Assembly (NCBI RefSeq): GCF_000826545.1
Contig: NZ_CDME01000008.1
Location: 434,001 to 498,000, forward strand
From: Kibdelosporangium sp. MJ126-NF4
GTDB lineage: Bacteria; Actinomycetota; Actinomycetes; Mycobacteriales; Pseudonocardiaceae
Direction: 5' to 3'
Length of the DNA stretch: 64,000 bases
Shown: positions 3,431 to 64,000 of the stretch, one piece after another
How the letters are laid out: the number at the start of each line of letters is the position of its first letter
Numbering within the stretch: position 1 is the first letter of the stretch
Made by a program: the position numbers and the translations under genes
The notes under the pieces: model-generated
What the model was told of the DNA's origin: nothing
The model's database searches: none
What the model saw: only the letters and a program-made list of their open reading frames with translations

Positions 3431-4710
3431 TCGACCCGTACCTGCCTGAGCACGGCGACCCGAGCTACAGCGTTGAACACTACGACCTGGAACTGGACTA
3501 CCGGGTCGGCGCGGGCAGACTGTCCGGCAGAGCGAAGATCACCGCGGTCGCCAACACGGCACTGACCCGGTTCACGTTGGACCTCGGCGTGTTCCGGGTG
3601 AACCGGGTCGCGGTCGACGGCAAACCGGTCCGGTTCGCCCACCGCGCGCACAAGCTGACTGTGCAGGCGCGGATGGCGGCCAAGCGACAGTTCACGGTCG
3701 AGGTGCGGTACGTCGGCAATCCCGAGCCGATCCGCACCAGGCACTGGGGCGAACTCGGCTGGGACCATCTCGAGGACGGCGTGCTGGTGGCCAGCCAGCC
3801 GACCGGGGCGCCGTCGTGGTTCCCGTGCAACGACCACCCCCGCGACAAGGCCACGTACCGGATCGCGGTGACGACCGGGTCGCCCTACCGCGTGGTCGCG
3901 AACGGGGACCTGATCGACGGCCGGGTGTCGGCGTCCACCACAACCTGGGTGTACGTGCAGCTCGAACCGATGGCCACCTACCTCGCCTCCGTCCAGATCG
4001 GACGCTACGAGTACCTCGAACGCGCCGACGACCGCGTCCCCATGCGCGCGGCCTATCCCCTGCGGCTGATGGACGGCTACGCGCACGACTTCGGCCGTCA
4101 GACCGAGATGATGGTCGCGTTCGAGCGGATGTTCGGGCCGTACCCGTTCAGCGCGTACACCGTCGTGGTCACCGACGACGACCTGGACATCCCGATCGAG
4201 GCGCAGGGGATGTCGATCTTCGGCGCCAACCACGTCGACGGCCGTCGCGGCTACGAGCGGCTGGTGGCGCACGAACTGGCGCACCAGTGGTTCGGCAACA
4301 GCGTGTCCATCGCCGACTGGCGGCAGATCTGGCTGAACGAGGGGTTCGCCGCCTACTCGGAATGGCTGTGGTCGCAGGCGTCCGGCGGTCAGTCGGCCGA
4401 CGCGCTGGCGCGGGCGACGTGGGCGAGGATCTCCCGGCTGCCCCAGGACCTGGTGCTCGCGGACCCCGGCGTCGACCGGATGTTCGACGACCTGGTGTAC
4501 CAGCGTGGAGCGCTTGCCGTGCACGCGTTGCGGTTGCGGCTGGGCGACGCCGCGTTCTTCGCGATGCTGCGGGAATGGACGACGAACAACCGGCACGGCT
4601 CAGCGACCATCGAGGACTTCATGGCGCACGCCCAGCGGCATTCGCCCCGCCCACTCGGCGACCTATTCACCGCCTGGCTGTACGAGGCTCGCCTGCCCGA
4701 GCTCGGCTAG
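3427..4710 (+). CDS. M1-family zinc aminopeptidase
   Basis: About 427 residues. The zinc site is plain: HELAHQWFGN near residue 281, with the third ligand in NEGFAAYSEW, i.e. HExxH-18-E. The usual GAMEN exopeptidase motif is replaced by EAQGMS. The protein is short for M1 and lacks the large C-terminal helical domain, as in many actinobacterial members. I chose the GTG at 3427 because it overlaps the stop of the NRPS-like gene, which makes translational coupling likely. An upstream in-frame ATG lies inside that gene. Coupling suggests it may trim an amino-acid polymer or peptide made by its partner, but this is inference. Its 3' end overlaps the opposing ipdC gene by 48 bp. Confidence 0.85.
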   Translation: MIDPYLPEHGDPSYSVEHYDLELDYRVGAGRLSGRAKITAVANTALTRFTLDLGVFRVNRVAVDGKPVRFAHRAHKLTVQARMAAKRQFTVEVRYVGNPEPIRTRHWGELGWDHLEDGVLVASQPTGAPSWFPCNDHPRDKATYRIAVTTGSPYRVVANGDLIDGRVSASTTTWVYVQLEPMATYLASVQIGRYEYLERADDRVPMRAAYPLRLMDGYAHDFGRQTEMMVAFERMFGPYPFSAYTVVVTDDDLDIPIEAQGMSIFGANHVDGRRGYERLVAHELAHQWFGNSVSIADWRQIWLNEGFAAYSEWLWSQASGGQSADALARATWARISRLPQDLVLADPGVDRMFDDLVYQRGALAVHALRLRLGDAAFFAMLREWTTNNRHGSATIEDFMAHAQRHSPRPLGDLFTAWLYEARLPELG

Positions 4711-42000: not shown

Positions 42001-42588
42001 GCGGTGTTCCGCTCGGACATGATCCTGGCGCACAGCCGGTTCGCCGGGCAGCTGAACGTGACCGACATGTTCACCCGGCTGCTGTTCACCCTGATCACCA
42101 CTGGGATCGCGCCGAGTTCGTTCTACCGGGCCAATGCCGGTGGCGACCGGCCGCGCGCGCACTACGACGGACTTCCCGCCGACTTCACCAGCGAGGCCAT
42201 CACCACGCTCACCGAGCAGAACAACAGCGGCTACCGGACCTTCAACGTGCTCAACCCACACGACGACGGCATCTCGTTGGATCTGTTCGTGGACTGGCTC
42301 GTCGAGGCAGGCAACCCGATCACCCGGATCGAGGACTATCAGGAGTGGTTGCGGCGCACGGAAACCGCGCTCCACGCACTTCCCGAACGGCAGAAGCAGC
42401 AATCGCTGCTGCCGTTGCTGCACGCGTACGCCCACCCCGGCGAAGGGAACGTCAGCGGCATACCGGTGGACCGATTCCGCGCGGCGGTGCGGGCCAACAA
42501 GGTCGGGCCGGACCAGGACATCCCCCACATCACGAAGGAGCTGATCCTCAAGTACGTCGCAGACCTGCGGACTCTCCGGCTCATCTGA
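39085..42588 (+). CDS. car: Carboxylic acid reductase (adenylation-carrier-reductase)
   Basis: 1167 residues. Adenylation domain with [13 protein letters not shown] near residue 248 and YRTGDI; carrier domain with the phosphopantetheine serine in [11 protein letters not shown] near 680; C-terminal NADPH-binding reductase domain beginning [16 protein letters not shown] near 778, with [10 protein letters not shown] containing the Tyr-x3-Lys pair. It reduces carboxylic acids to aldehydes with ATP and NADPH, after activation by a phosphopantetheinyl transferase that is not encoded nearby. Full length for the Nocardia/Mycobacterium CAR family. Proximity to the pca/pob genes suggests aromatic acids, sterol acids are an alternative. 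Confidence 0.92.
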
Positions 42589-49903: not shown

Positions 49904-50296
49904 TCACTTGAAGTCAAGGACCTCGGTGTTCTGACAGGCGACCAGTTTCCAGCCGTCGGGCTCCTTCGACATCACGTACAACGGCGTGCCCTCGTTGCCG
50001 ATCTGCTCGCCGTCCAGCGTGAGGTACCGCGCGCGTGCCTTGACCGCGGCCACGTCCGGCCGGATGAACAGGATGTCGACCACCTTGTACTCGGCTGTCG
50101 TGTCCCGCATCGCTCCCGGCAGGACCTGGTGGGTGAACTCGGAGATCTCGTCGCGGCCGGTGAGCCGCTTGCCGTGGCCGGTGGTCCAGATGGCGTCCTC
50201 GCGGAACAGGGCGACGAACTCGTCCGGCAGCTCGTTGCGCTGCGCGTGTTCCAGGGTGGCGATGACCTGCTTGATCGCGTCGATGTCGGTCTGCAT
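49904..50296 (-). CDS. SnoaL-like/SgcJ-type NTF2-fold protein
   Basis: 130 residues. IKQVIATLEHAQRNELPDEFVALFREDAIWTTGHGKRLTGRDEI and the ending WKLVACQNTEV are the pattern of the SgcJ/EcaC branch of the NTF2-like superfamily. Members include polyketide cyclases and proteins of unknown role; no catalytic residues can be fixed here. ATG at 50296 is the natural start; an upstream in-frame ATG is possible. The gene follows the FAD oxidase gene on the same strand after 33 bp. Confidence 0.7.
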   Translation of the reverse strand: MQTDIDAIKQVIATLEHAQRNELPDEFVALFREDAIWTTGHGKRLTGRDEISEFTHQVLPGAMRDTTAEYKVVDILFIRPDVAAVKARARYLTLDGEQIGNEGTPLYVMSKEPDGWKLVACQNTEVLDFK

Positions 50297-50329
50297 GACG
50301 CCAGCGTCCAACCTCAACAACGCTGGAGG

Positions 50330-51766
50330 TCAAGCCAGTCCCTGCGGGAACGCGAAGACGCGCTGCGGGTCGTAGCGTTTCGCCACGGCACGCAGCCCGG
50401 TGAGGTTGGCCCCGTAGTACGCCTGTGCCCAGTTGGGCATCCGCGGGTCGATGTAGTTGACGTACCCGGTCTGGCCGAACTGCCTGCCGACCTCGTCACG
50501 GACATGCCCGATGGCCTGGCGCGCAGTGTGTTCGTCGCCGTCGACCGGGTGGATGATCTGCATGCTGGCAAGGCTTTTGCGGTACGGGAACGCGGTGTCG
50601 GCCACGCCGACGCGGGCGATGGCGCCGCCGAAGCTGGCGAACTGTGTGTACAGGCCCGGTGCGCTGCGCAGCAGTGCCGCCATCGCCGAGGTGTCGCGGA
50701 TGGCCGTTCCGAGCATCCGTGATGTGGACACATAGGACGCTCGGTCGAGTTGGCCGCTGTCGCCCGCCCAGCTCGGGCGGCACTCCTGTTGGCTCAGCTC
50801 GGCGCATCCGGCGAAGTACCGCATCGCGTCGATGTAGTCGTACTGCTTGGTGCGCCGGACGATCGGCTGCGTGCCGACGAGCCGCACCAGGTTGTCGAGG
50901 TGTGGCCGCAGTTGTGCCTCGGTGCCGACGAAACACCCGGCGACCCAACTGGTCGCACGGGCATCCCCCTGAACGTCCAGGTTGGACCAGACCTCGTCGG
51001 GAACGGCCCAGGCCTGCCAGCCGCCGAGTAGTTCGGCGAGCGCCGCCGCCGGGAACTCCAGTTCGAACACCGTGAGGTCGGCGGCAGGCGCGGTGCGGAA
51101 CGTGAACGACGTGACGATGCCGAAGTTCCCGCCACCGCCACCCCGCAGCGCCCAGAACAAGTCCGGTTCCTGCGCGGCGGAGACGGTCCGCAGCTTGCTG
51201 TCGGACGTGACAATCCGCGCGGAGACAAGCCGGTCGCACGTCAGGCCGTACTTGCGCGCGGTGACACCGAGTCCGCCACCGAGCGTGAGCCCGGCGATCC
51301 CCACGGACGGGCAGGTCCCGCCCGGCAGCATCCGCCCGGACCGGGCGAGGGCCGAGTAGACGTCGATCAGCTGGGCACCCGCGCCGACCGTCGCCGTGCC
51401 GTCCCGGTTGACCTGGACGGCCGAGAGCGCACGGACGTCGGCGACGAGGCTTCCGTCCCGTGTGGAGTAACCGGCGTAGCTGTGCCCGCCGCTGCGCGCG
51501 GCGATCGGCGTCTGCGTGGCCGCCGCGAACTCGATACACGCCTGGACATCCTCGGTACGCGCACAGCGGGCGACCGCGGCCGGGCGCTGTCCATCGTGGA
51601 GCGTGAAGAAGCCCTGCCGGGCGGTGGCGTAGCCCGGATCCTGCGGCAGATGCAGCGCTCCGCCCAGCCGGGTGCGCAGCCGCTGCCAGTCCGGCGGTGC
51701 GGCCATGCCGAAACTGGCCATGGCCGCACCGAGTCCGAACAGGAGCCTACGTCTGCTGACCGTCAT
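50330..51766 (-). CDS. Secreted FAD-linked oxidase of the BBE/PCMH type
   Basis: 478 residues. N-terminus SRRRLLFGLGAAMASFGMA looks like a twin-arginine export signal. The FAD domain has RSGGHSYAGYS, where the His is the usual covalent FAD attachment, and GGTCPSVGIAGLTLGGG, whose Cys could make the second bond, as in bicovalent berberine-bridge-type enzymes. The C-terminal BBE segment YVNYIDPRMPNWAQAYYGANLTGLRAVAKRYDPQRVF is clear. Substrates of this family are sugars, alcohols or aromatic products; which one applies here cannot be read. Confidence 0.82.
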   Translation of the reverse strand: MTVSRRRLLFGLGAAMASFGMAAPPDWQRLRTRLGGALHLPQDPGYATARQGFFTLHDGQRPAAVARCARTEDVQACIEFAAATQTPIAARSGGHSYAGYSTRDGSLVADVRALSAVQVNRDGTATVGAGAQLIDVYSALARSGRMLPGGTCPSVGIAGLTLGGGLGVTARKYGLTCDRLVSARIVTSDSKLRTVSAAQEPDLFWALRGGGGGNFGIVTSFTFRTAPAADLTVFELEFPAAALAELLGGWQAWAVPDEVWSNLDVQGDARATSWVAGCFVGTEAQLRPHLDNLVRLVGTQPIVRRTKQYDYIDAMRYFAGCAELSQQECRPSWAGDSGQLDRASYVSTSRMLGTAIRDTSAMAALLRSAPGLYTQFASFGGAIARVGVADTAFPYRKSLASMQIIHPVDGDEHTARQAIGHVRDEVGRQFGQTGYVNYIDPRMPNWAQAYYGANLTGLRAVAKRYDPQRVFAFPQGLA

Positions 51767-51792
51767 GACTCCCGAAAGTAACCGTGAACCGG

Positions 51793-52230
51793 CTACTGCG
51801 CGAGCGAAGCGTCCAACGTGATCGTGGTGCCCGACAGCGCCTTGGTCACCGGGCAGGTGCGCTCGGCGGTCGCCGCGAGCTCGGCGAACGTGTCCTTGTC
51901 CAGCCCGTCGACCTTGGCGGTCACCGTGATCGCGATCCCGCTGATCCGGAAGCCGCCTGCCGGGTCGGGGCCGAGTGTGACCTCGGCGCTGACGTCAAGG
52001 CTGGTGGCCGTGTGGCCCGCCTGCTCGAGCGTGCCGGACAGGTTCATCGCCAGGCAGGAGGAGTGGGCCGCGGCGATCAGTTCCTCGGGGCTGGTCTGGC
52101 CGTCCGGGTTGCCCGCGCGGGTCGGGAAGGACACCGGGAACTGCCCGGCGTTCGACGAGTCCAGGGTGACGGTGCCCTTGCCCTGCTGCAGTCCGCCTTC
52201 CCAGTGGGTGGTCGCGTCGCGGCTTGGCAT
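51793..52230 (-). CDS. OsmC-family peroxiredoxin
   Basis: 145 residues. The two redox cysteines are Cys59 in AAAHSSCLAM and Cys126 in AERTCPVTKAL, with the N-terminal HWEGGLQQGKG of OsmC proper rather than Ohr. It reduces organic hydroperoxides. Directly follows the MarR gene (1-bp gap), so the pair forms a peroxide-sensing operon. Confidence 0.85.
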   Translation of the reverse strand: MPSRDATTHWEGGLQQGKGTVTLDSSNAGQFPVSFPTRAGNPDGQTSPEELIAAAHSSCLAMNLSGTLEQAGHTATSLDVSAEVTLGPDPAGGFRISGIAITVTAKVDGLDKDTFAELAATAERTCPVTKALSGTTITLDASLAQ

Positions 52231-52231
52231 G

Positions 52232-52720
52232 TCAGTGATCTCCTTCGGGTGAGGTTTCGGTGGAGGCGGCTCGTGCGGATTCGGTGATACCGCGCAGGAG
52301 GGTGATGAGCGTGAGCCGGGCCTGGTTGTCCAGACCCAGGGCGCACCCGATCGCGGCGGGGATCGCCTGCGCGCGTTCGCGCAGCGCGATCCCCTCGTCG
52401 GTCAGGCTCACCACGACGCTTCGCTCGTCGCCCGCCTGCCGCCTGCGTTGTACGAGCCCACGCGTCTCCAGCCGCTTGAGCAGCGGGGAGACGGTGCCGT
52501 AGTCGAGGTGAAGGGCGGCACCTATCTGCTTGATCGGCTGGTTGTCGCGCTCCCACAGCACCAGCAGCACCAGGTACTGCGGATACGTGAGGTCCAGCTC
52601 GGCCAGTAGCGGCCGGTACACGTCCGTGACCGCCCTGGACGCCGCGTACAGCGCGAAGCATGCCTGCTCGTCGAGCAGGAGCAGGTCGCGTGGGTCAGGT
52701 TCGGTCACACTCGAAACCAT
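52232..52720 (-). CDS. MarR/OhrR-family peroxide-sensing regulator
   Basis: 162 residues. The reactive cysteine typical of OhrR is Cys21 in LLLLDEQACFALYAASRA. Winged helix in QIGAALHLDYGTVSPLLKRLETRGLVQRRRQAGDERSVVVSLT. Oxidation of Cys21 by organic peroxides would release DNA and induce osmC. A perfect dyad lies just upstream of its start codon. Confidence 0.85.
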   Translation of the reverse strand: MVSSVTEPDPRDLLLLDEQACFALYAASRAVTDVYRPLLAELDLTYPQYLVLLVLWERDNQPIKQIGAALHLDYGTVSPLLKRLETRGLVQRRRQAGDERSVVVSLTDEGIALRERAQAIPAAIGCALGLDNQARLTLITLLRGITESARAASTETSPEGDH

Positions 52721-52723
52721 AGT

Positions 52724-52740
52724 GCACGATTACATCGTGC
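52724..52740. promoter_or_regulatory. Candidate OhrR operator
   Basis: GCACGATTACATCGTGC is a perfect dyad with 7-bp arms and a 3-bp spacer. It starts 4 bp upstream of the marR start codon and overlaps the stop codon and last codons of the methyltransferase gene. Confidence 0.58.
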
Positions 52741-53617
52741 GCAAGGTATCTCGCTGGAAGTGCCAGACGACCAGCTGCGGGCCTGCCGCGGCATGCGCCG
52801 CCTCCGGGACCAGCGCCGCCAGCGACCAGGGCCAGACGTCCCACGGGCCGACCTCCTCGCCCTTCGGGCCGGGCCCAGCCTCGGACCTCGGCTCCTCGCA
52901 GCCCCGCAGCACCAGGCCCGCTGCAAGGGCCGCGCGCAGGTAGTCCCCCATCGAGTGGCGGTAGGTGACCAGTCGGCACGGCTCGTTGTTCGGACCGCGG
53001 ACGGTCGGGATCGAGCCGCGCAGGACCCCGTCCGGGTGGATGTCGGCGACGACCAGGTGCCCGCCCGGTCGCAGGACACGGGCGAACTCGGCGAAGATCG
53101 GCCCGAGATCGGGCGTGTGGGTCAGTGCGAGCCCACAGACGATCAGGTCGACGTCACCGATCGGCAGATCGTGCAGTTCACCCACGCGGAACTCGCTGTC
53201 CGGCAAGCGTTTGCGGGCCAGGTCGAGCATGTCGGGCGAACTGTCGACACCGATCACCCGGTGCCCCCGCTCGGCGAGGATCTCGGCGTACCGGCCGGTG
53301 CCGCACGCCGCGTCCAGCGCCGTGCCGACGGGCAGGTCGTCCAGTATCCGCTCGAGGATCGGCACGTCGATCGCGAACGCCGCGTTGGCCGGGTCGTCGT
53401 AGGTCGCCGACCAGGTGCGATAACCGTCCACTGTGGCCACAGGGGTCACGTCGACCGGACGCGCCAGCCGCTCGTCGGCGAGCAGTTCACGGATCTCCGC
53501 GAGCCTGGCCTCGACGAACTCACGGTCGTGCTCCCCGATGAAGCTCTGCAGCAGAGCCACACCTTCGAGACCGAGCACGTAGGCCAAGGGATGCTCGTGG
53601 ATCACGGGAACGCGCAA
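52730..53617 (-). CDS. Class I SAM-dependent methyltransferase
   Basis: 295 residues. SAM-binding motif I is ALDAACGTGRYAEILAERGHRVIGVDSS near residue 100, then PIGDVDLIVCGLALTHTPDL and VLRPGGHLVVADIHPD. An N-terminal extension of about 60 residues precedes the domain. Small-molecule methylation is likely; substrate unknown. The start overlaps the VOC gene by 16 bp on the same strand. Confidence 0.78.
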   Translation of the reverse strand: MRVPVIHEHPLAYVLGLEGVALLQSFIGEHDREFVEARLAEIRELLADERLARPVDVTPVATVDGYRTWSATYDDPANAAFAIDVPILERILDDLPVGTALDAACGTGRYAEILAERGHRVIGVDSSPDMLDLARKRLPDSEFRVGELHDLPIGDVDLIVCGLALTHTPDLGPIFAEFARVLRPGGHLVVADIHPDGVLRGSIPTVRGPNNEPCRLVTYRHSMGDYLRAALAAGLVLRGCEEPRSEAGPGPKGEEVGPWDVWPWSLAALVPEAAHAAAGPQLVVWHFQRDTLRTM

Positions 53618-53970
53618 AACTCATTTCCTTCCGGGTCAGCGAGAACGTGGTGATCGTCGTACTCCGCCACGACCGTCGCGCCCAGCGCCAGCAGCGCGGT
53701 GGGATCGCCGTCCACATCGATGTGGACGCGGTTCTTCACGGTCTTGGGTTCGGGTACGAGCGTGAGGAAGATGCGAGGCCCGGTGCCGTCCGTGCGGTGC
53801 ACCAGCACACTGGGGTCGCCTTCGGGGGAGTCGATGCCCATGGCGCGCAGCCGGGCCAGCTCCTCGTCGTCGTACGGAGCTATCTCGTAGTCGTCGAGTA
53901 CTGCCGCCCAGAACCGGGCGAGCGATGCCGGATGCCTGCAGTCGATGACGATGTCACGAAGACGAGCCAT
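53602..53970 (-). CDS. VOC-superfamily (glyoxalase-like) protein
   Basis: 122 residues, a single VOC module: IVIDCRHPASLARFWAAVL at the start and VHIDVDG with DPEGNEFCAFP at the end, as in the glyoxalase-like domain common in actinomycetes. Metal-site residues are incomplete, so it may be a binding or resistance protein instead of an enzyme. Operon with the methyltransferase. Confidence 0.75.
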   Translation of the reverse strand: MARLRDIVIDCRHPASLARFWAAVLDDYEIAPYDDEELARLRAMGIDSPEGDPSVLVHRTDGTGPRIFLTLVPEPKTVKNRVHIDVDGDPTALLALGATVVAEYDDHHVLADPEGNEFCAFP

Positions 53971-54400
53971 GTGCCCGGATGGTGCCAGCCCGAAAGCGCG
54001 GTGTCGCCCGAATAAACGATCACGCCGATCGGCGCGCGTTATCCCGCTCGGCGGGAATCGTTGGCACGATCATGCCAACCTCGGGCATTGTGCTTGTGCG
54101 GCAGGTGACCATTTCGCCGACACGCTGGCCGGGATATCCCGGCCGCGCGTGCCGCGAGACTTTCACCCACGGGCGCTGGATGCGTCGCGGGCTGATGTCA
54201 CTGACAAACGGGTTGGTCACCACGGGGGGCTTTGGTGACCAGCCCGTTCGTCAAATGGGGCATCGCGCTGGATGATCGGAGTGTTACGCGTCGGTACGAA
54301 CGGATGTGAAAAACGCACCGGTAGCCCGTGACAGGCGCGTCGGTGACTGATTACGGAACTCACTATGCCGCTCGGCACCCTGGTAACAACGATTGCAGCC
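53971..54400. other. Gene-free 430-bp leader region before the lanthipeptide synthetase
   Basis: No convincing coding frame. It holds three separate dyads: GTTGGCA-N6-TGCCAAC (54060-54079), the perfect 18-bp palindrome GGCCGGGATATCCCGGCC (54127-54144) and a long hairpin (54202-54253). It is divergent upstream space of the VOC gene and of lanKC, so regulatory use is likely. Confidence 0.6.
54202..54253. promoter_or_regulatory. Long hairpin upstream of lanKC
   Basis: Arms 54202-54222 and 54233-54253 pair at 19 of 21 positions around a 10-nt G-rich loop. No plus-strand gene ends before it, so it is not an ordinary terminator; a 5'-leader structure or an operator of the ram-type locus are options. 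Confidence 0.5.
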
Positions 54401-56980
54401 ATGAACGAGGAGTACGAGCCCTACTGCATGGCGGATCCGTCGTTCTACGACGCGATGCACTCCGAGCAGACGGCCGGAGAGTCGTTCACCACCGCCCGGC
54501 GCCCATTGCCGGACGGGTGGACGCGCCACGAGCAGGACGACTGGTTCGTACTCGACCCCGGCACCCGCGACATCCCTCTGCAGGGATGGAAGATCCACGC
54601 GTCGGCGACAACGGACAACGCCGAACGCGTGATCGACGGGATTTTCGACTACTGCGTGCCGCGCGGTATCCAGTTCAAGTTCCTCCGGTCACGCTCCGCA
54701 TTGATTTCCCGGCTCTCCAAATACGCTCCGCGTGGCTTCAGCGGCAAGCTCGTCACGATCTATCCGCAGGACGACGTCCAGTGCGAACAGATACTGACCG
54801 AGCTCGGCGAGCGGCTCGACGGCGAGCCGAGCCCGTACATCCTCAGCGACCTGCGCTGGGGGACGGGCCCGCTGTTCGTCCGCTACGGCGCGTTCGCCAA
54901 CCGGTACACAGTGGACGACAACGGCGAGCTGGTCGCCGCGATCGCCCAGCCGGACGGGACACTCGTGGCCGACCGGCGCGGTCCGGTCTTCTACACGCCG
55001 CCGTGGGTCACGCTGCCCGGTTTCCTCGAGCCGCACCTCGCATCCCGTAACGCCGTCACCGTTCAGGACCTGCCGTACACCTTCGACAGCGTCGTGCACT
55101 TCTCCAACGGAGGCGGGATCTACGTCGGCACGGACACCAGGACGGGCGAGCAGGTCGTGCTCAAGGAAGCCCGACCACACGCCGGACTGGACGCGCTGGG
55201 CCACGACGCCGTACGCAGGCTGGAGCGGGAGCACAACATCCTGCGCAGACTCGCGGGCATCCCCGGCATCCCCGCTGTCCATGACCTGTTCTGGCTCGGC
55301 GAGCACCGATTCATGGTGATGGAGTACGTGCAGGGCGACGTGTTGGGCAAGGCGATCACCAAGCGGTACCCGTTGATCAACCCGGCTGCGACGGACGAGG
55401 ACCACGCCCTGTTCACCGACTGGGCCGTGCGGATCTTCCGCCAGGTCGAGCACGCCGTGACAGCCGTGCACGAGCGCGGGATCGTCTACGGCGACCTGCA
55501 CCTGTTCAACATCATCGTCCGCGAGGACGACACGATCGCCCTGCTCGACTACGAGGTCGCGGCGCCGATCGAGGAGGGGGTGCGGCCCGGTCTCGGCAAC
55601 CCCGGGTTCATGGCGCCCCGCTCGGTCACCGGGTTCGGGATGGACCTGTACGCGCTGGCGTGCCTGCGGCTGTCACTCTTCCTGCCGATGACGGACCTGG
55701 TCGGGCTGCACCGGGTCAAGGCACGGCAGTTCGTCGACATCATCACCGAGTACTTCCCGGTGTCGCGGGAGTTCCTGGACAAGGGCGTCGACGTGATCGT
55801 CCCGCCGGACACCCCGCCGACACCCAGTCCGGTCATCACGACGGACACGGCAGGCTGGCCGTCACTGCGCGACGAGATGGTCCGCTCGATCGTCGCGAGT
55901 GCCACGCCCGACCGCGATGATCGGCTGTTCCCCGGTGATCCCAGGGTGTTCGGCCTCGGTGGGCTCGGACTGGCCTACGGCGCCGCAGGTGTCCTCTACG
56001 CCCTGTCGACCGCGGGCGGACACCGCGACGAACGGTACGAGCAGTGGCTGGTCAGTCGGGCGACGAACCCGGTCAGTGGCTCGCGGATCGGCCTGTTCGA
56101 CGGCCTGCACGGCGCCGCGTTCACTCTCGCGCACCTGGGTTACCGGCAGGAAGCACTGGACGTTGTGGACATCTGCCTGAAGGAGCAGTGGCAGAAGCTC
56201 GGGCCCGACCTGATGTCCGGCCTGGCCGGAGTGGGCCTCAACCTGTTGCACTTCGCCGATCGCACAGGCGAACCGGCGTTGCGCGTCGCCGCGCACCGGG
56301 CGGCCGAGCTCATCGCCGAACGGCCGGACGACACCGACGACTCCGGCATCAGCGGCGGGGCGTATCCACACGCCGGGCTGTTCCGTGGACGCGCTGGCCA
56401 GGCGCTGTTGTTGTTGCGTGCCTACGATGACACCGGCGACACGAACTTCCTCGACCGCGCTGCCAACGCTTTGCGTCAGGACCTGAAGCGTTGTTACCTG
56501 CGGGAGAACCGTGTTCTGGAGATCAACGAGGGTTGGCGGACCATGCCGTACCTCGACGGCGGCTCGGTCGGCCTCGGTGTCGTCCTCGACGAGTACCTGG
56601 CCCGCAGGCACGACGACCAGTTCGTCGAGGCCAACCGTGGCATCGAGAAGGCCGCGACGGGCACGATGTACATCCTGCCGGGGCTGTTCACCGGGCGCGC
56701 CGGAATCATCGCCTACCTGGCTGGGCGGCTGCCGGGCACGGACCCGTTGGTGACCAAGCAGATCCGCAACCTGGCTTGGCACGCGCTGCCCTACGGCGAC
56801 GGGATCGCGTTCCCGGGAACCGCGTTGATGCGCCTCTCGATGGACCTGGCCACCGGCACCGCCGGTGTGCTGCTCGCGGTGGGAATGGCGCTGAACGAAG
56901 AACCAACCCACCTGCCGCTGCTGGCGCCCACGCGCCGCGTGGCCCCACAGACCCCCGCGCCGTCCGGTGCGGGTTCCTAG
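54401..56980 (+). CDS. Class III lanthipeptide synthetase LanKC (RamC-like)
   Basis: 859 residues in three parts: N-terminal phosphoSer lyase domain (about 1-210), a kinase domain with VVLKEARPHAG, IVYGDLHLFNIIV (catalytic loop near residue 364) and LLDYEVAAP (metal site), and a C-terminal LanC-like cyclase with GLHGAAFTLAHLG, SGLAGVGLNLLHF, GLFRGRAGQALLLL and LFTGRAGIIAYLAG but without the zinc-ligand set of class I/II cyclases. It phosphorylates and eliminates Ser/Thr of the precursor and forms lanthionine or labionin rings. I preferred the ATG at 54401 because MNEEYEPYCMADPSFYD matches the RamC N-terminus; an ATG at 54365 is also in frame. Confidence 0.9.
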   Translation: MNEEYEPYCMADPSFYDAMHSEQTAGESFTTARRPLPDGWTRHEQDDWFVLDPGTRDIPLQGWKIHASATTDNAERVIDGIFDYCVPRGIQFKFLRSRSALISRLSKYAPRGFSGKLVTIYPQDDVQCEQILTELGERLDGEPSPYILSDLRWGTGPLFVRYGAFANRYTVDDNGELVAAIAQPDGTLVADRRGPVFYTPPWVTLPGFLEPHLASRNAVTVQDLPYTFDSVVHFSNGGGIYVGTDTRTGEQVVLKEARPHAGLDALGHDAVRRLEREHNILRRLAGIPGIPAVHDLFWLGEHRFMVMEYVQGDVLGKAITKRYPLINPAATDEDHALFTDWAVRIFRQVEHAVTAVHERGIVYGDLHLFNIIVREDDTIALLDYEVAAPIEEGVRPGLGNPGFMAPRSVTGFGMDLYALACLRLSLFLPMTDLVGLHRVKARQFVDIITEYFPVSREFLDKGVDVIVPPDTPPTPSPVITTDTAGWPSLRDEMVRSIVASATPDRDDRLFPGDPRVFGLGGLGLAYGAAGVLYALSTAGGHRDERYEQWLVSRATNPVSGSRIGLFDGLHGAAFTLAHLGYRQEALDVVDICLKEQWQKLGPDLMSGLAGVGLNLLHFADRTGEPALRVAAHRAAELIAERPDDTDDSGISGGAYPHAGLFRGRAGQALLLLRAYDDTGDTNFLDRAANALRQDLKRCYLRENRVLEINEGWRTMPYLDGGSVGLGVVLDEYLARRHDDQFVEANRGIEKAATGTMYILPGLFTGRAGIIAYLAGRLPGTDPLVTKQIRNLAWHALPYGDGIAFPGTALMRLSMDLATGTAGVLLAVGMALNEEPTHLPLLAPTRRVAPQTPAPSGAGS

Positions 56981-57006
56981 AAAACCCCCGACAAGGAGTA
57001 CCCGAG

Positions 57007-57159
57007 ATGTCAGTTCTCGACCTGCAGGGCATGGAAGCCGCACCGCAGACCGGCGGCCACGGTGGTGGCAGCTCCAACAGCGGCCACAGCTGCCCGAGCA
57101 ACCTGAGCCTCACCCTGTGCGACGGCAGCTCCGGCCTGTCGCTGCTGATCTGCCACTAG
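57007..57159 (+). CDS. Class III lanthipeptide precursor (RamS/AmfS-like) with three ring motifs
   Basis: 50 residues. The leader MSVLDLQGMEAAPQ has the LDLQxME recognition helix of SapB-type precursors. The core holds three SxxSxxxC motifs: Ser22/Ser25/Cys29, Ser31/Ser34/Cys38 and Ser42/Ser45/Cys49, ending with His50. The second and third have hydrophobic residues within the ring like SapB; the first (SSNSGHSC) is polar and has no counterpart in SapB, which has two rings. AAGGAG lies 10 bp before the ATG. The gene follows lanKC by 26 bp and is followed by a strong hairpin. Confidence 0.9.
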   Translation: MSVLDLQGMEAAPQTGGHGGGSSNSGHSCPSNLSLTLCDGSSGLSLLICH

Positions 57160-57184
57160 TTCTCAGGTAGATCCATCTGAGCAC

Positions 57185-57225
57185 GCGCGACTCCGGGACG
57201 ACTGTCGCTCGCCCCGGAGTCGCGC
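57185..57225 (+). terminator. Hairpin between precursor and transporter genes
   Basis: A perfect 13-bp stem (GCGCGACTCCGGG with its complement) around a 15-nt loop, 26 bp after the precursor stop. Placed inside the operon it would stop or protect most transcripts after the precursor gene, giving more precursor than transporter mRNA. Confidence 0.65.
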
Positions 57226-57245
57226 ACCAACTATAGGAGTCGTGG

Positions 57246-58898
57246 GTGACGACGTTTGGCGTGATCGCCAGGCACGGGGGCCGTCTGCTTCCGGTGATCG
57301 GCGTATCCGCCCTGGTTGGCACGGTCGGCATGCTCGCATTGCCCACTGTGCTCGGCAAAGCCGTTGACGCGATCGTCACCGGTGGCGCGGTGACCACCTG
57401 GTTGGTCGTCGCCGGGCTGCTGATCGCGGTCGGCGTCGTCACCGATCTCGTCGACTCGTTCGTGGGCGTCGCCTGCGTCGCGAACACCACCGCGTGGTTG
57501 CGCGAGCGCTTGGTCAGACACCTGCTCGCCGCGGGCCCCGACCGCGGCTTCGAAACCGGTGACCTGGTCACGCGGGTGTCCGGAAACGCTGTGGACGCCG
57601 CACAAGCGGGTCCCGCGGTGGTCACCGTGTGGATGGCGGTGCTGCCTCCTGTCGGCAGTCTCGTCCTGCTCGTGGTGATCGATCCGTGGCTCGCGGTCGC
57701 CTTTCTCGGCGGTGTTGGGCTGGTCGCGTTGGTGCTGCGCGCGTTCACCCGCCGGACTGCCCGCGTGATCACGTCCTACCAGCAGGTGCAGGGCCGGATC
57801 GCGGCCAGGCTGGCCGAATCCCTCACCGGTGCCCGCACCATCGCAGCGGCCGGAACGCTGCACGACGAGAAGCGCCGTGTGCTGCGTGAGCTGCCTGCCT
57901 TGCACGACCAGGGAATGGCGAGCTGGCGCGTGCTCTCCCGGTCGGTCGCGCAGGCCGGTGTGGTCGGCCCGCTCGTGACTGTCTCGGTGTTGGCCGTCGG
58001 CGGCTTCGCGTTGCTCAACAGCCGCATCACTCCCGGTGAACTGTTCGCCGCGCTGCAGTACGCGGCGCTCGGTGCGGGGCTCGGTGGCATGACGGGCGTC
58101 TTCGGCCGTCTGGCCAGGGCGCGGGCCGGTGCGTCCCGCGCGATCGAGGTGTTCGACGTCCAGCCGCCCGACTACGGAGACCTCTGGCTCACCGACGGCA
58201 AGGGAAAGCTGGAGTTCAGGAACGTCACCGTCCACAAGGGAGGAACCACGGTCCTCGACCGCGTCACGCTGACGCTGCCGGGCGGCAAGGCCATCGCGGT
58301 GGTCGGCCGGTCCGGCGCGGGCAAGTCGACGCTGGCCGCGGTCGCGGCGAGGCTGACCGACCCGGCCGACGGTCAGGTCCTGCTGGACGACGTTCCGCTG
58401 AAGTACTTGACGCACAGGGAACTGCGCACCGCGATCGGCTGCGCGTTCGAACGCCCGGTGCTGGTCGGCGGCACGGTCGCCGACGCTGTCGGCATGGGCC
58501 GCGATCCGGACCGTGTCCGGTCGGCCGCGAAGGCGACCCACGCGCACGAGTTCGTCAGCCGTCTGCCTCTCGGCTACAACACCCCGCTCGCCGAGGCGCC
58601 GATGTCCGGCGGCGAGGCGCAGCGCCTCGGCCTCGCACGGGCGTGGAACGCCGAACGGCTGCTCGTCCTGGACGACGCGACGTCCAGTTTGGACATGGTG
58701 ACCGAGATGCAGATCGGCCGGACACTGACCACCGACCACAGCCAGCGCACCAGGCTCATCGTCACCCACCGGGTCGCCACCGCGGCCAACGCGGACCTGG
58801 TGGTCTGGTTGGAATCCGGCCGTGTCCGCGCGGTCGGCCCGCACACGAACCTCTGGCTGGACCCGCAGTACCGGGCCGCGTTCGGGGAAACAGCGTGA
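57246..58898 (+). CDS. ABC exporter half-transporter of the lanthipeptide locus (RamA-like)
   Basis: 550 residues: six membrane spans (about 1-300) and a nucleotide-binding domain with Walker A GRSGAGKST near residue 353, signature MSGGEAQR near 453, Walker B LLVLDDATSSLD near 475 and the switch histidine in IVTHRVATA. The catalytic glutamate after Walker B is aspartate, so this half contributes a weak ATP site. Exports the modified peptide together with the next gene. GTG start has TAGGAG in front; the stop overlaps the next start (GTGA). Confidence 0.87.
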   Translation: MTTFGVIARHGGRLLPVIGVSALVGTVGMLALPTVLGKAVDAIVTGGAVTTWLVVAGLLIAVGVVTDLVDSFVGVACVANTTAWLRERLVRHLLAAGPDRGFETGDLVTRVSGNAVDAAQAGPAVVTVWMAVLPPVGSLVLLVVIDPWLAVAFLGGVGLVALVLRAFTRRTARVITSYQQVQGRIAARLAESLTGARTIAAAGTLHDEKRRVLRELPALHDQGMASWRVLSRSVAQAGVVGPLVTVSVLAVGGFALLNSRITPGELFAALQYAALGAGLGGMTGVFGRLARARAGASRAIEVFDVQPPDYGDLWLTDGKGKLEFRNVTVHKGGTTVLDRVTLTLPGGKAIAVVGRSGAGKSTLAAVAARLTDPADGQVLLDDVPLKYLTHRELRTAIGCAFERPVLVGGTVADAVGMGRDPDRVRSAAKATHAHEFVSRLPLGYNTPLAEAPMSGGEAQRLGLARAWNAERLLVLDDATSSLDMVTEMQIGRTLTTDHSQRTRLIVTHRVATAANADLVVWLESGRVRAVGPHTNLWLDPQYRAAFGETA

Positions 58899-60706
58899 AG
58901 CGCGAGATCCGGTTCGGCGTCACCGCGCTGCGTGCCGGGCCGCTCTTCGCGTTGATCGGCTGGTCGATCCCGGAGGCGGTGCCCGCCGCGGTGTCCGGAC
59001 TCGCGGTGGCCAACGCCGTCGACGACGGCTTCCTCGCCGGTCGCCCGGTCGTCGGCTTCGCCTGGCTGGCCGGACTGATGGTGGCCGCGCTGATCGGTTC
59101 GGCCGGATCGCGCAAGGTCTTCCAGCGGCTCGGCGAACTCGTCGAGCCCTTCCGTGACGACCTGGTCCGCAGGGTCGTCGGCAGCGCGCTGTACAAAAGC
59201 GTGTCCGGGCAACCGGACGCGGGCGCGCTGGCCCGGCTGACCCGGCAGGTCGAGGTGGTCAGGGACACCTACGCCGGTCTGATCGTGGTCATCCGCGGCT
59301 TCCTGGTGACCCTGGTCGGTGTGCTCATCGGCCTGCTGTCACTGTCCCCGGTCGTCCTGCTGCTGATCCTGCCGCCGTTCCTGCTGGGCTTCGCAGGATT
59401 CCTGGCCACACTGGGTTTCGCCGCGGCGAAACAGCGGGCGTCCGTGCTGGCGGACGAACGGCTCGCCGCCACCGCCGGGTCGGTGCTGGCCGGGACACGT
59501 GACGTGGTGGCCTGTGGTGCTGAGGCGCACGCGGCCGCCATGGTGTCCGGGCCGATCCAGGACCAGGCCGACGCCGAGCGCGCGTTGGCCAAGGTCGCCG
59601 CGCTGCGCACACTCTGCTTCGCCGTCGGCGGCTGGCTGCCGCTGATCGTGCTGCTGGTCGCCGGGCCGTGGCTTGTCGGGCAGGGGCTGACCGCCGGTCT
59701 GATCATGGGTGGCCTGACGTATGTCGTATCCGGCCTGCAACCCGCCCTGCAGACGGTGATCGCCGGAGTGGGCGGCAGCGGCCTGCGGTTCGTGGTCACG
59801 CTCGGCCGCATCCTCGACGAGACAACGTCCCCGCCGGTCGAGTTCGTCCAGCAGCACGACAGGGACGGTGACGACCTGATCCTGCGGGACGTGACGTTTG
59901 CCTACGGGCCGCACGCCGAGCCGGTTCTGCGCGACCTCGACCTGACCGTGCTGGCGGGCGAGCACCTCGCCGTGGTCGGCCCCAGCGGGATCGGGAAGTC
60001 GACGCTGGCGAGCCTGATCTGCGGGCTGCGCTCGCCGGACGCGGGCACGATCCGGTACGGCGGAGTGCTCGCCGCGGATCTGGGAGCGGCCGATCGGGTG
60101 CTGATCCCGCAGGAGGCGTACGTGTTCACGGCCTCCCTGCGGGACAACCTGACGTATCTGCGGCCGGACGCGACGGACGACATGATCGCGCAGGCCGTGG
60201 CCGCTGTCGGCGCACGTGACCTGGTCGAGAGGATCGGCGACCACCTGGACCCGACTGGCCTGTCAGCGGGGGAACGGCAGCTGGTCGCATTGGTCCGGGC
60301 CTATCTGAGCCCGGCCCGGCTCGTGGTGCTCGACGAGGCCACGTGTCACCTGGATCCGGTGGCCGAACGACGGGCCGAGGAGGCGTTCGCGCGTCGAGGC
60401 GGAACACTGGTCGTCGTAGCCCATCGGATCAGCTCGGCGCGCCGTTCCGAGCGGATCCTGGTTCTCGACGGGGTCACTGCCGCCGTCGGTGACCACACCT
60501 CTTTGGTACAGCGGTCATCGCTGTACCGGGACCTGTGGGGGAGCTGGGACTCACAACCATCCCGCCTCACGCACGATCCGGATCGCGTCGATCCGGGTGC
60601 GGGCACAGGTCTTGCTCATCACTTTGGACAGATAGTTCCGCACGGTTCCCTTGGACAACGAGAGCCGGGTCGCGATCTCCGGTCCGGAGGCACCGTCGGC
60701 GGCTAA
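58895..60706 (+). CDS. ABC exporter half-transporter of the lanthipeptide locus (RamB-like)
   Basis: 603 residues: six membrane spans and a nucleotide-binding domain with Walker A GPSGIGKST near 361, signature LSAGERQL near 455, Walker B LVVLDEATCHLDP with an intact catalytic Glu, and VVAHRISSA. The signature LSAGE is altered. Paired with the previous protein, one site (this Walker B with MSGGE) should be active and the other degenerate. The last 52 residues or so, after YRDLWGSW, are unlike the family because the frame runs 156 bp into the opposing regulator gene. Confidence 0.86.
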   Translation: MKREIRFGVTALRAGPLFALIGWSIPEAVPAAVSGLAVANAVDDGFLAGRPVVGFAWLAGLMVAALIGSAGSRKVFQRLGELVEPFRDDLVRRVVGSALYKSVSGQPDAGALARLTRQVEVVRDTYAGLIVVIRGFLVTLVGVLIGLLSLSPVVLLLILPPFLLGFAGFLATLGFAAAKQRASVLADERLAATAGSVLAGTRDVVACGAEAHAAAMVSGPIQDQADAERALAKVAALRTLCFAVGGWLPLIVLLVAGPWLVGQGLTAGLIMGGLTYVVSGLQPALQTVIAGVGGSGLRFVVTLGRILDETTSPPVEFVQQHDRDGDDLILRDVTFAYGPHAEPVLRDLDLTVLAGEHLAVVGPSGIGKSTLASLICGLRSPDAGTIRYGGVLAADLGAADRVLIPQEAYVFTASLRDNLTYLRPDATDDMIAQAVAAVGARDLVERIGDHLDPTGLSAGERQLVALVRAYLSPARLVVLDEATCHLDPVAERRAEEAFARRGGTLVVVAHRISSARRSERILVLDGVTAAVGDHTSLVQRSSLYRDLWGSWDSQPSRLTHDPDRVDPGAGTGLAHHFGQIVPHGSLGQREPGRDLRSGGTVGG

Positions 60707-61216
60707 CCGAAGTACCTGCAGCTCACGGGGGGTGAACGGGTTGGGGCCCGCAGCGAGCGCGGCGACGGCGAGGTTGACGTCGACGACCTGGGAACCTCGT
60801 GCGGCACCGCGGATCGCGGTGAGCAGGCGTTCGGCCGACGCGTTCTTGTCGACCAGGCCGAGTACCTCGGCGGTCAGCGCACGCTGGACCAGACCGGGTG
60901 GCCGGGCCGCGGCCAGTGCGACGATCTGGGTGTGCGGCAACCGGGACCGTAACTCCGGAACCATGGTCAGGCCGCGGGTGCACGGTTGGTCCACATCGAT
61001 CACTGTGACGTCGGGTCGCATCCGGGCCGCGATCGGCACCACGTTGTCATCGCACTTGAGATCGGCGACCACCTCCATGTCCTGTTGGTCTGACAGCAGT
61101 GTCACGAGCGCATCGCGCAACAGGTCCATGTCGACGACGAGCAGCACTCGGATGACACCCGGCACGGTTGCCGGATATTCGGTTCTCTCTGGGCTGACTT
61201 GCGGCCCTGCCGACAT
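60551..61216 (-). CDS. LuxR/NarL-type response regulator of the lanthipeptide locus (RamR-like)
   Basis: 221 residues. Receiver domain (VLLVVDMDLLRDALVTLL, VTVIDVDQP with the likely phosphoacceptor Asp) and a C-terminal helix-turn-helix FTPRELQVLRLAADGASGPEIATRLSLSKGTVRNYLSKVMSKTCARTRIDAI split over residues about 155-210. ATG at 61216 has GGGAGGAC in front; an ATG 13 codons upstream is less good. RamR of streptomycetes activates ramCSAB. Here the gene is convergent, overlapping the end of the transporter gene. No sensor kinase lies next to it. Confidence 0.85.
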   Translation of the reverse strand: MSAGPQVSPERTEYPATVPGVIRVLLVVDMDLLRDALVTLLSDQQDMEVVADLKCDDNVVPIAARMRPDVTVIDVDQPCTRGLTMVPELRSRLPHTQIVALAAARPPGLVQRALTAEVLGLVDKNASAERLLTAIRGAARGSQVVDVNLAVAALAAGPNPFTPRELQVLRLAADGASGPEIATRLSLSKGTVRNYLSKVMSKTCARTRIDAIRIVREAGWL

Positions 61217-61567
61217 TCGTCCTCCCTCTCCTGAGCTCCTTGACGAGCTCCCCACGCGATCCGTAGATAGGGAAGGGGCATATGGCCGTTACCGGCGCAC
61301 CGTTGGGCCTGATCTTTGCTCATACGAACGGAGTAATCCGGCAAATAATCAACTGGCGAATTGTCGGGTGGGCGGCGATCGTAACGCCGATTCGTTGTGT
61401 CACCGGCGAATCGGGCGTGCTCCGGGCTCGGTGGGCCGGTCGGGCGGCGATGTCCGATCCCAGACAGAGATTTGCGCGATGTCGTTGAACTCTTGCTATA
61501 GTTAGGGCGTTAAACTTAATATGCCTCGCATCTGGCAACGGCGCCAGGACAGTGAGGGCGGACGGAC
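61217..61567. other. 351-bp intergenic region between ramR-like and GH99-like genes
   Basis: Divergent promoter space. No gene is visible. It turns markedly AT-rich near 61490-61522 (CTATAGTTAGGGCGTTAAAC and on), where TTGCTA and TTAATA with 17-bp spacing could be a promoter for the GH99-like gene. Confidence 0.5.
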
Positions 61568-62623
61568 ATGCGAACCCTGCGAAGCATTGTCGGCCTGCTG
61601 GTCCTCCTGCTCACCTCCGTCGTCCTGCATGCGCCTGCGGCGTCGGCGGGCCCGGTGGCGCAGGCGGTTGCGGCCGACGTTCAACTCTTCTACTACCCGT
61701 GGTACGGAAGCCCGTCGGTGAACGGCACCTACCGGCACTGGCAACAGGGCGGCCACACTCCGCCCGACGACGTCGGTGCGAACTTCCACCCCACGCTCGG
61801 TGCGTACGACTCCGGTGACACCGCGGTGATCGACCGGCACATGCAGATGATCCGGCAGTCCGGCGCGGGCACGATCGTGACGAGCTGGTGGGGCCCCGGA
61901 TCCTATGAGGACAGTGTGACGCCCGCGGTGCTGGCGTCGGCGGCACGGCACGGAATCAAGGTCGCATGGCACCTCGAGCCGTACTCCGGCCGGACCGCCG
62001 AGTCCACGGTCGCGGACATCGGCTACATCAACCAGAAGTACGGTGGCAGTCCGGCCTTCTACCGCGCACCGGCGTGGGGCAACCGCGGCGCGTTCTACGT
62101 CTTCGAAAGCCTGCGGATCGCCGACTGGAGCCCGATCGAGCAGGTCAAGCCGACCAGTATCGTGCTGGCGCAGACAACCGACCCGTCGCGTGTCGCGCAC
62201 TTCGGCGGGATGTACACCTACGACGGGATCGCCGGAGCAACCGCGCCTGGCTGGAAGACCGCGTCGGACTTCTGCAAGGCCAACGGGATGGTGTGGGCGC
62301 CGTCCGTGGCGCCCGGCTACATCGACGACCGGGCGGTGCCGGGCAACACCACGCCGACAGTCGGCCGCGACAACGGCGCCATGTACGACAGGCAGTGGGG
62401 CAACGCGCTCAACCCGGCCACCGGCGGCGCGCCGACATGGGTATCGGTGACGTCGTTCAACGAATGGCATGAAGGATCGATCATCGAACCGGCCAGCTCG
62501 AACCCACCCGCCGGGCACGGCTACCTGACCTACCAGGGCGCGTACGGCCGGACCGGCGCGGACGCGGAAACCGCCTACCTGGACCGAACACGCCACTGGG
62601 TCGGCCAGTTCACGAGCGCCTGA
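61568..62623 (+). CDS. Secreted glycoside hydrolase, GH99-like (endo-alpha-mannosidase family)
   Basis: 351 residues. Signal peptide MRTLRSIVGLLVLLLTSVVL with a cut near ASAG. Then VQLFYYPWYGSPSVNG, TIVTSWWGPGSYEDS, VAWHLEPYSGRT and SVTSFNEWHEGSIIEPA, the pattern of GH99/GH71-type enzymes, which cut alpha-mannosides from within; the Glu residues in HLEPY and FNEWHEGS are the likely catalytic ones. Bacterial targets are yeast or plant mannans. Its 3' end overlaps the convergent amidohydrolase by 14 bp. Confidence 0.8.
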   Translation: MRTLRSIVGLLVLLLTSVVLHAPAASAGPVAQAVAADVQLFYYPWYGSPSVNGTYRHWQQGGHTPPDDVGANFHPTLGAYDSGDTAVIDRHMQMIRQSGAGTIVTSWWGPGSYEDSVTPAVLASAARHGIKVAWHLEPYSGRTAESTVADIGYINQKYGGSPAFYRAPAWGNRGAFYVFESLRIADWSPIEQVKPTSIVLAQTTDPSRVAHFGGMYTYDGIAGATAPGWKTASDFCKANGMVWAPSVAPGYIDDRAVPGNTTPTVGRDNGAMYDRQWGNALNPATGGAPTWVSVTSFNEWHEGSIIEPASSNPPAGHGYLTYQGAYGRTGADAETAYLDRTRHWVGQFTSA

Positions 62624-63677
62624 TACCCGCGCACCACACTGCGCGGATCCGGCGGGTGGCCGTGATGTCCTCGAGCGGATCCCCGTCAAGGAGTACCAAG
62701 TCGGCCCGCATGCCCGGCTCGATCCGGCCGCGGTCGGTCAGCCCGAACACTTCAGCCGGGTTGCTTGTCGCCGCCCGCAATGCCTCTACAGTGGACAGAC
62801 CGGCTGAGACAAGGTGTTCCAGCTCTTGGGTGAGGCTTTCGCCGTGCGCCACCGGGTTCGGTACGCCTTCCTGCGCATGCGCGTCCGTGCCCGCCACGAT
62901 CGTGACGCCCGCGGCGTGCAGCGCGGTCACGCCCGGTATGCAGTTCGCGGCGAACCCATCGGGATTGCCGCGGATCCGTTGGACGCCATCCATCATCGTG
63001 AGTGTCGGTATCGCGACACATCCCGCGCTCGCCACTCGCATGGCGAGATCCTCATCGAACGGCGCTTCCACCGGGACGTGAGTGATGATGTCGGTGCCCG
63101 ACAGCAACGCCATCTCCACCGCGCCCAGCGAGGTGACGTGCGTGACCGCCTTCAGGCCGTTCTCGTGTGCCAGCTTGACTATCTCGTTGAGCACGTCTTG
63201 GTTCGGTCCGCCTTCTCCTGGCGCTTCGGCGATCAGCTTGATGTAGTCCACACCCTGTGCGAGCCGCGCTGCCACGAACCGGCGCGCTTCGTCGACCGTG
63301 CGCATGATGGCTTCCTCAGGCAGGCCGAACATCTTCGCGTGCACACCACCTTCGCCGATCGCGGGGAGCCCGGCGCTGCGGATGTCGGTCAGCCCGTGGA
63401 TCCCACGTAGCGCGGCAAGCCGTTCCGCGGGCCAGATGGCCATGTCCAACGCGGTCGTGACGCCATGCGCGCTGAGCTGTTGGAGGTTCTCCCGGCCGTG
63501 CAGGTGGACGTGGCCGTCGATGAAGCCGGGCACGAGCACCGCGCCCTCGGCGTCCAGCAGTTCCGCGCCAGTGGTATCCGTGCCGATGGTCGAGCCGTCG
63601 ATGACAACCGTGCGCGGCTCGGTGAGCTCGTTGCCGTCGAAGACACGGACGTTGGTCAACGCGGTCTTGCTGGTCAT
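62610..63677 (-). CDS. Metal-dependent amidohydrolase (imidazolonepropionase/prolidase-like)
   Basis: 355 residues. PGFIDGHVHLHGRENL holds the HxH metal pair, KLIAEAPGEGGPN supplies the lysine-bearing segment, AVTHVTSLGAVEMALLSGTDIITHVP the two later His, and VAGTDAHAQEG the last Asp. The C-terminus ADLVLLDGDPLEDI is typical. This group cleaves cyclic amides, dipeptides or related bonds; the substrate is open. Divergent from a TetR gene that may control it. Confidence 0.8.
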   Translation of the reverse strand: MTSKTALTNVRVFDGNELTEPRTVVIDGSTIGTDTTGAELLDAEGAVLVPGFIDGHVHLHGRENLQQLSAHGVTTALDMAIWPAERLAALRGIHGLTDIRSAGLPAIGEGGVHAKMFGLPEEAIMRTVDEARRFVAARLAQGVDYIKLIAEAPGEGGPNQDVLNEIVKLAHENGLKAVTHVTSLGAVEMALLSGTDIITHVPVEAPFDEDLAMRVASAGCVAIPTLTMMDGVQRIRGNPDGFAANCIPGVTALHAAGVTIVAGTDAHAQEGVPNPVAHGESLTQELEHLVSAGLSTVEALRAATSNPAEVFGLTDRGRIEPGMRADLVLLDGDPLEDITATRRIRAVWCAGIRRS

Positions 63678-63740
63678 GGGACGCTCCCGAGATAAGAGAC
63701 AAACTTGTGCACTAAAGCCACCCTACGCTATAACCGGACG

Positions 63741-64000
63741 GTGACAGCCACTCGTCGCCGCGGTGACAGCCTTTGCCAGGCGATCTACCTGGTGACGCTG
63801 GCGGAACTCGCGCGAACCAGCTTCGCGGATCTCACCTTCGACAAGCTCGCGACGCTCGCCGCAACCGGCAAGGCGTCGCTCTACCGCCGCTGGTCCACTC
63901 CCCAACAGCTGGTGCTGGCCGCGCTGACCGATCCGTCCACCGGATTCGGCGAGGCCGTCGCGCCGGACACCGGCGCGCTGCGCGACGACCTGCTCGACAT
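63741..64000 (+). CDS. TetR-family regulator, cut by the window end
   Basis: 86 codons visible. From GTG at 63741 it reads TATRRRGDSLCQAIYLVTLA, then ADLTFDKLATLAATGKASLYRRWSTPQQLVLAALTD: a TetR helix-turn-helix with GKASLYRRW as recognition helix. It is divergent from the amidohydrolase gene with a 63-bp gap holding the small dyad ACAAACTTGT (63699-63708), so it probably regulates that gene and itself. Confidence 0.75.
   Translation, partial: MTATRRRGDSLCQAIYLVTLAELARTSFADLTFDKLATLAATGKASLYRRWSTPQQLVLAALTDPSTGFGEAVAPDTGALRDDLLD

Follow-up and report, generated by a model that had tools for sequence, protein, structure and literature searches.

The 64,000-nucleotide stretch of Kibdelosporangium sp. 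MJ126-NF4 analysed here as a whole (henceforth 'the window') holds a complete amf/ram-type operon, comprising a class III lanthionine synthetase (LanKC), a small precursor gene, two ABC half-transporters and an opposed LuxR-type regulator (Table 1), which is the layout of the ram and amf operons. The precursor open reading frame at 57007-57159 (+) translates into the 50-residue peptide MSVLDLQGMEAAPQTGGHGGGSSNSGHSCPSNLSLTLCDGSSGLSLLICH, which matches both the RamS profile PF19402 (50.2 bits; cut-off 24.3) and the NCBIfam SapB/AmfS model NF033212 (46.5 bits; cut-off 25). We consider the gene to be real because of these two matches, the ribosome-binding-site-like AAGGAG in front of it and its 140 homologs. 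Together with the adjacent LanKC, the profile matches bear out the class III (RamS/AmfS-family) assignment made in an earlier note on this DNA.

Table 1. Features of the lanthipeptide locus (positions in the window).
Feature	Coordinates	Strand	Evidence and remarks
LanKC, class III lanthionine synthetase; RamC_N, kinase and LanC-like domains	54365..56980	+	NF038151, PF25816, PF00069, PF05147; start uncertain, Met at 54401 possible
Ribosome-binding-site-like AAGGAG	56993..56998	+	read from sequence; 8 bases 5' of ATG
Precursor gene, stackepeptin-type RamS/AmfS family, 50 aa	57007..57159	+	PF19402 and NF033212 matches; at least 120 homologs
Leader, residues 1-13, with class III recognition motif L-x-L-Q (LDLQ) and Ala-Pro	57007..57045	+	translation; literature motif
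Gly/His-rich linker of variable length, residues 14-21, preceding motif 1	57046..57069	+	homologs differ in length and composition
Motif 1, S22xxS25xxxC29 (SSNSGHSC), polar	57070..57093	+	motif match, hydropathy
Motif 2, S31xxS34xxxC38 (SNLSLTLC), hydrophobic	57097..57120	+	motif match, hydropathy
Motif 3, S42xxS45xxxC49 (SGLSLLIC), hydrophobic, followed by C-terminal His50	57130..57153	+	motif match, hydropathy
GC-rich intercistronic hairpin, between precursor and first ABC gene	57185..57225	+	folding z-score, covariation
ABC exporter half-transporter 1	57246..58898	+	PF00664, PF00005
ABC exporter half-transporter 2	58643..60706	+	PF00005 (79.4 bits); overlaps first ABC gene, true start maybe downstream of 58643
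LuxR-type response regulator adjoining the operon	60551..61255	-	PF00072, PF00196

The precursor carries LDLQ at residues 4-7, and thus the L-x-L-Q leader motif described for class III lanthipeptides in the accessible part of PMC7268733; the accessible part of PMC10206099 gives the leader motif as LELQEL. A strict match finds exactly three SxxSxxxC motifs, starting at Ser22, Ser31 and Ser42, just as the earlier note had read them, and the first two are indeed set apart by a single residue, Pro30. Mean Kyte-Doolittle values of -0.98, +1.01 and +2.05 for motifs 1, 2 and 3, respectively, also uphold the description 'one polar, two hydrophobic'. Chance is ruled out as the origin of the three motifs: when residues 21-50 were shuffled 200,000 times, three or more motifs appeared in a fraction of 0.0002, and 118 of the 120 homologs among the matches listed have three strict motifs as well. 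Among the 81 stop-to-stop frames of the window that contain at least one motif, the precursor's is the only one with three.

Directly upstream lies the LanKC of 871 residues, which scores 1062.6 bits against the class III model NF038151 (cut-off 575) and 362.3 bits, under the cut-off of 650, against the class IV model. A sequence scan made without structural alignment found no CHG tripeptide of the zinc site in this protein, the cysteines of which are confined to positions 21, 97, 140, 433, 604 and 710; it is thereby classed as a zinc-free cyclase, in line with the zinc-free cyclases described for class III in the available portion of PMC10604976. For the second half-transporter, the PF00664 match (23.6 bits) is below the cut-off of that model. 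The LuxR-type regulator is taken as the AmfR/RamR counterpart. Its open reading frame and that of the second ABC gene overlap tail to tail over about 150 bases (60551-60706), an arrangement also seen in tblastn alignments of three related loci (L002-L004). Elsewhere in the window lie a region resembling steroid/cholesterol catabolism (4663-46183), with mce genes, thiolases, CoA transferases, a ChsH2-like OB protein and an acyl-CoA dehydrogenase, and a gene (39085-42588, +) for a carboxylic acid reductase-like protein of 1167 aa with AMP-binding, carrier and reductase domains, which adjoins a TetR regulator.

The 86 bases that separate the precursor gene from the first ABC gene (57160-57245), and which contain the hairpin, fold with a z-score of -4.86. 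In an alignment of 15 loci related to the window (L001-L007, L009-L015 and L148), taken from the same place in each, the consensus stem comprises 13 pairs, eight of which show compensatory changes; at eight of the 13, one to three sequences have a gap or fail to pair. The hairpin has no T-run, and a search of positions 50000-64000 against Rfam returned no match at the gathering threshold; a role as attenuator or mRNA stabiliser is therefore possible, and the hairpin may in this way give more precursor than transporter.

A protein search retrieved 140 homologs of the precursor at E ≤ 10, 120 of which are listed; the two of these without three strict motifs (P0025 and P0033) keep the first cysteine in a first motif that is one residue shorter. 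Since such a search recruits sequences via shared five-residue words and conservation is thus inflated, profile searches were run as well. In the alignment of 119 rows (118 listed homologs and the window's peptide, with P0025 and P0033 dropped), S22, S25, S28, C29, P30, S31, S34, C38, G40, S42, S45, C49 and H50 are invariant, where the alignment pattern itself imposed S22, the three cysteines and P, G or T at position 30, and not S25 or S28. Ser28 and His50 lie beyond the ring motif, and their relevance to the chemistry is worth keeping in mind. At the codon level, the core has a pN/pS of 1.1 overall and of 1.5 in motif 1, plain numbers which show no purifying selection and which deserve little weight, since the pathway count scores AGY-TCN switches of serine as amino-acid changes. 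The per-codon patterns impose the ring residues and 'SC', so that the zero changes at ring positions and at Ser28 are in part built in.

These data bear on whether all three motifs become rings. It could be argued that only motifs 2 and 3 do so, and that motif 1 serves as a conserved spacer or for recognition, left unbridged or cut off with the leader, which would yield a two-ring product similar to SapB or AmfS. Consistent with this, motif 1 is polar, sits behind a Gly-rich linker of variable length and is absent from SapB-like precursors, and in P0025, P0033 and a further locus (L115) the first cysteine is kept in a motif one residue shorter. On the other hand, S22, S25, S28, C29 and P30 are identical in every one of the 119 rows (S22, C29 and P/G/T at position 30 being imposed), and AGY and TCN codons replace each other at S22 and S25 with the serine retained, in a codon pattern that imposes the ring residues and 'SC'. 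We regard a two-ring product as very unlikely and favour three rings.

The earlier note had proposed to align all RamS/AmfS-like precursors in search of a third motif, and expected a new member of the morphogen lanthipeptides. In a PF19402 profile search of 397 genomes from the order of genome G003, 78 genomes gave 100 matches, 99 of which were read (the match on contig 126 of G241 was left out; one on G268 has an internal stop). Three-motif precursors turned up in eight of these genomes (G003, G005, G010, G011, G013, G015, G309 and G322), the other matches read having one or two motifs, e.g., SapB-like forms and forms with longer spacing; none of the five loci L099-L102 and L130 has three motifs. 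When the window's protein was searched against 200 genomes from the family of G003, 21 matched: 15 with three strict motifs, five of two-motif types, and L115 with three cysteines and the shortened first motif. Over all loci collected, 29 distinct peptides carry three strict motifs. In one of them (L142), the first motif is hydrophobic and unrelated to the GHSC type; this peptide comes from genome G540, another contig of which encodes a second, different three-motif precursor (L147).

All 17 three-motif loci examined show the order LanKC-precursor-ABC-ABC; the regulator is opposed and lies downstream in 16 of them and upstream in L007. In L008, L012 and L013, the second ABC gene is matched over part of its length (357-397 residues). 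In a tree built from 37 LanKC rows (the window, L001-L015, L148 from Stackebrandtia nassauensis, L149, the divergent three-motif loci L172-L175, and 15 other RamS-type loci; L168, which is without LanKC, was left out), all 22 three-motif rows fall on one side of a branch with 100/100 support and the 15 others on the opposite side. Since precursor type guided the choice of rows, the tree speaks for a grouping among the sampled clusters only, and loss of a motif in members of the group is possible. Within it, the window's LanKC belongs to a group of four (100/100) with loci from Actinosynnema sp., Kibdelosporangium and 'Rhodococcus rhodnii', while the LanKC of S. nassauensis groups with Glycomyces; a subgroup of 17 that includes both the window and S. 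nassauensis has 99/99 support. The LanKC and the precursor of the locus labelled Rhodococcus rhodnii NRRL B-16535 (L004) are almost the same as in Kibdelosporangium aridum (L003), and the label may therefore be wrong. Three-motif precursors are thus spread over several families of actinobacteria (Pseudonocardiaceae, Glycomycetaceae, Micromonosporaceae and Actinopolymorphaceae) and are no curiosity of one species.

The S. nassauensis precursor (genome G564, locus L148), MALLDLQGLESPADLSATRGGSSGSGHSCPSNLSATLCGGTSGLSVLICH, shares the first motif SSxSGHSCPS with that of the window, the feature by which we recognise the stackepeptin type. Stackepeptin was reportedly described by Jungmann et al. in 2016 as a 'supersized' class III lanthipeptide with 'motif multiplication'. 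The S. nassauensis precursor adjoins a LanKC (555485-557959; 1048.8 bits) that is the only one of this genome over the class III cut-off, the next-best candidate, with 287.5 bits, being under it. Since S. nassauensis produces stackepeptins according to the accessible part of PMC6429369, we conclude by elimination that this is the stackepeptin precursor. Within the limits of the portions available, PMC11251773 assigns stackepeptin to the same slow-evolving class III subfamily as SapB and others, whose members have two to three cysteines, and PMC8960859 states that two or three motifs are common in known class III lanthipeptides.

Hence, the claim that three motifs make a new sort of precursor fails on several counts: (i) three motifs are present in 118 of the 120 homologs listed, (ii) the LanKCs of the 22 sampled three-motif clusters form one group, and (iii) the S. 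nassauensis cluster and, as far as its accessible part goes, PMC8960859 rule out a 'new architecture'. The earlier note had made its claim depend in part on whether such precursors were already well characterised; since the stackepeptin-type three-motif family is known, with stackepeptin itself assigned by elimination, they essentially are, and the third motif proves widespread. Our search of the literature on class III lanthipeptides, including those of Kibdelosporangium, Pseudonocardia and Actinophytocola, found no report that the window's peptide has been isolated. We thus hold with high confidence that an ordinary amf/ram operon makes a stackepeptin-type class III lanthipeptide here and that the gene at 57007-57159 codes for its precursor. 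Peptides of the three-ring form are known already and are widespread in actinobacteria, and the window adds an uncharacterised member: one more cluster for the stackepeptin-type group, with the known chemistry unchanged.

Biosynthesis of the stackepeptin-type peptide would begin with recruitment of LanKC by the LDLQ leader. The kinase would then phosphorylate Ser and Thr residues of the core, the lyase part would eliminate the phosphate to give dehydroalanine, and the zinc-free cyclase would join each cysteine to either one dehydroalanine (lanthionine) or two (labionin), thus creating three ring systems; phosphorylation, elimination and metal-free cyclisation by LanKC enzymes are described in the available portions of PMC10604976 and PMC7296275. 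Residues 22-50 contain ten Ser/Thr, so that up to ten dehydrations are possible. The mass of 'minus six water' put forward in the earlier note accordingly fits full dehydration of the six motif serines and is no firm mass prediction. The ABC pair would export the peptide, and a host protease encoded elsewhere would cut near the Ala-Pro/Gly-rich linker, followed by trimming. The Ala-Pro of the leader is kept in 111 of the 120 homologs among the matches listed and might mark the cleavage site. As far as the accessible parts of these papers go, actinobacterial class III clusters usually lack a leader protease gene (PMC7268733), and known examples of leader proteases are an M1 peptidase (AplP) and a prolyl oligopeptidase (FlaP; PMC10885120). 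About 50 kb from the precursor, the window encodes an M1-family peptidase of 441 aa (3385-4710, +), the family of the AplP leader proteases; any link between this gene and the lanthipeptide is speculation.

The polar motif 1 (SSxSGHSCPS) could also be bridged otherwise than the two hydrophobic motifs, e.g., by a lanthionine beside two labionins or by a His-linked ring. We deem this very unlikely; were it so, the product would be a two-headed molecule, with an N-terminal ring that binds a partner or metal and C-terminal rings that act as surfactant. It is even harder to credit that the conserved histidines take part in the chemistry, whether by binding copper or through a cross-link to histidine, as happens in noursin, a LanKC-made peptide with His in its core, a histidinobutyrine link and bound copper (PMC10206099, accessible part). 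His27, present in 112 of the 119 aligned rows, and the invariant His50 would accord with such a role; yet His27 gives way to Asn, Lys or Gln in the remaining seven rows, and a His at the place of His18 occurs in 18 of the 120 homologs among the matches listed, which leaves the metal binding through His18, His27 and His50 envisaged in the earlier note unsupported. The Gly/His-rich lead-in of that note is, in the family, a Gly-rich linker of variable length; 50 of the 120 homologs listed have any His between the leader LQ and the first motif. Noursin itself, to judge from the same portion of PMC10206099, has one Cys in a different motif and three dehydrated residues, one of which is left for His, whereas the window's precursor has three Cys; the noursin cluster includes an S9 peptidase, and NorKC-type cyclase domains form a group apart from RamC/AplKC, while the window's LanKC, set against NorKC by description, scores far over the general class III cut-off.

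During aerial growth, SapB and AmfS act at the air-water or cell surface. By analogy, a surface or morphogen activity of the window's stackepeptin-type peptide is plausible: the product, with a polar N-terminal ring and two hydrophobic C-terminal rings, probably acts there at the same stage. In the accessible part of PMC13380574, variants of durhapeptin, a two-motif relative, lost activity when hydrophobic residues had been replaced. The S26T variant had no effect on the durhapeptin producer itself, which we count against a surface or morphogen reading.

Among known systems, SapB (RamS) and AmfS resemble the window in that its precursor scores over the cut-off of their family models, in the LDLQ leader and in the company of a LanKC, two ABC genes and a LuxR regulator; in contrast, the SapB-like precursors examined have two motifs, and the window's precursor has an additional polar motif at the N-terminal side. 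Should the group prove to have SapB-like activity, it would allow two- and three-ring surface peptides to be compared. The stackepeptin cluster of S. nassauensis is closer: it shares with the window the three SxxSxxxC motifs in a core of the form SSxSGHSCPSNLS..LC.G.SGLS.LICH, the gene order and the LanKC group, with 66% identity of the precursors and 60% identity of the LanKCs, and it differs in leader and linker.
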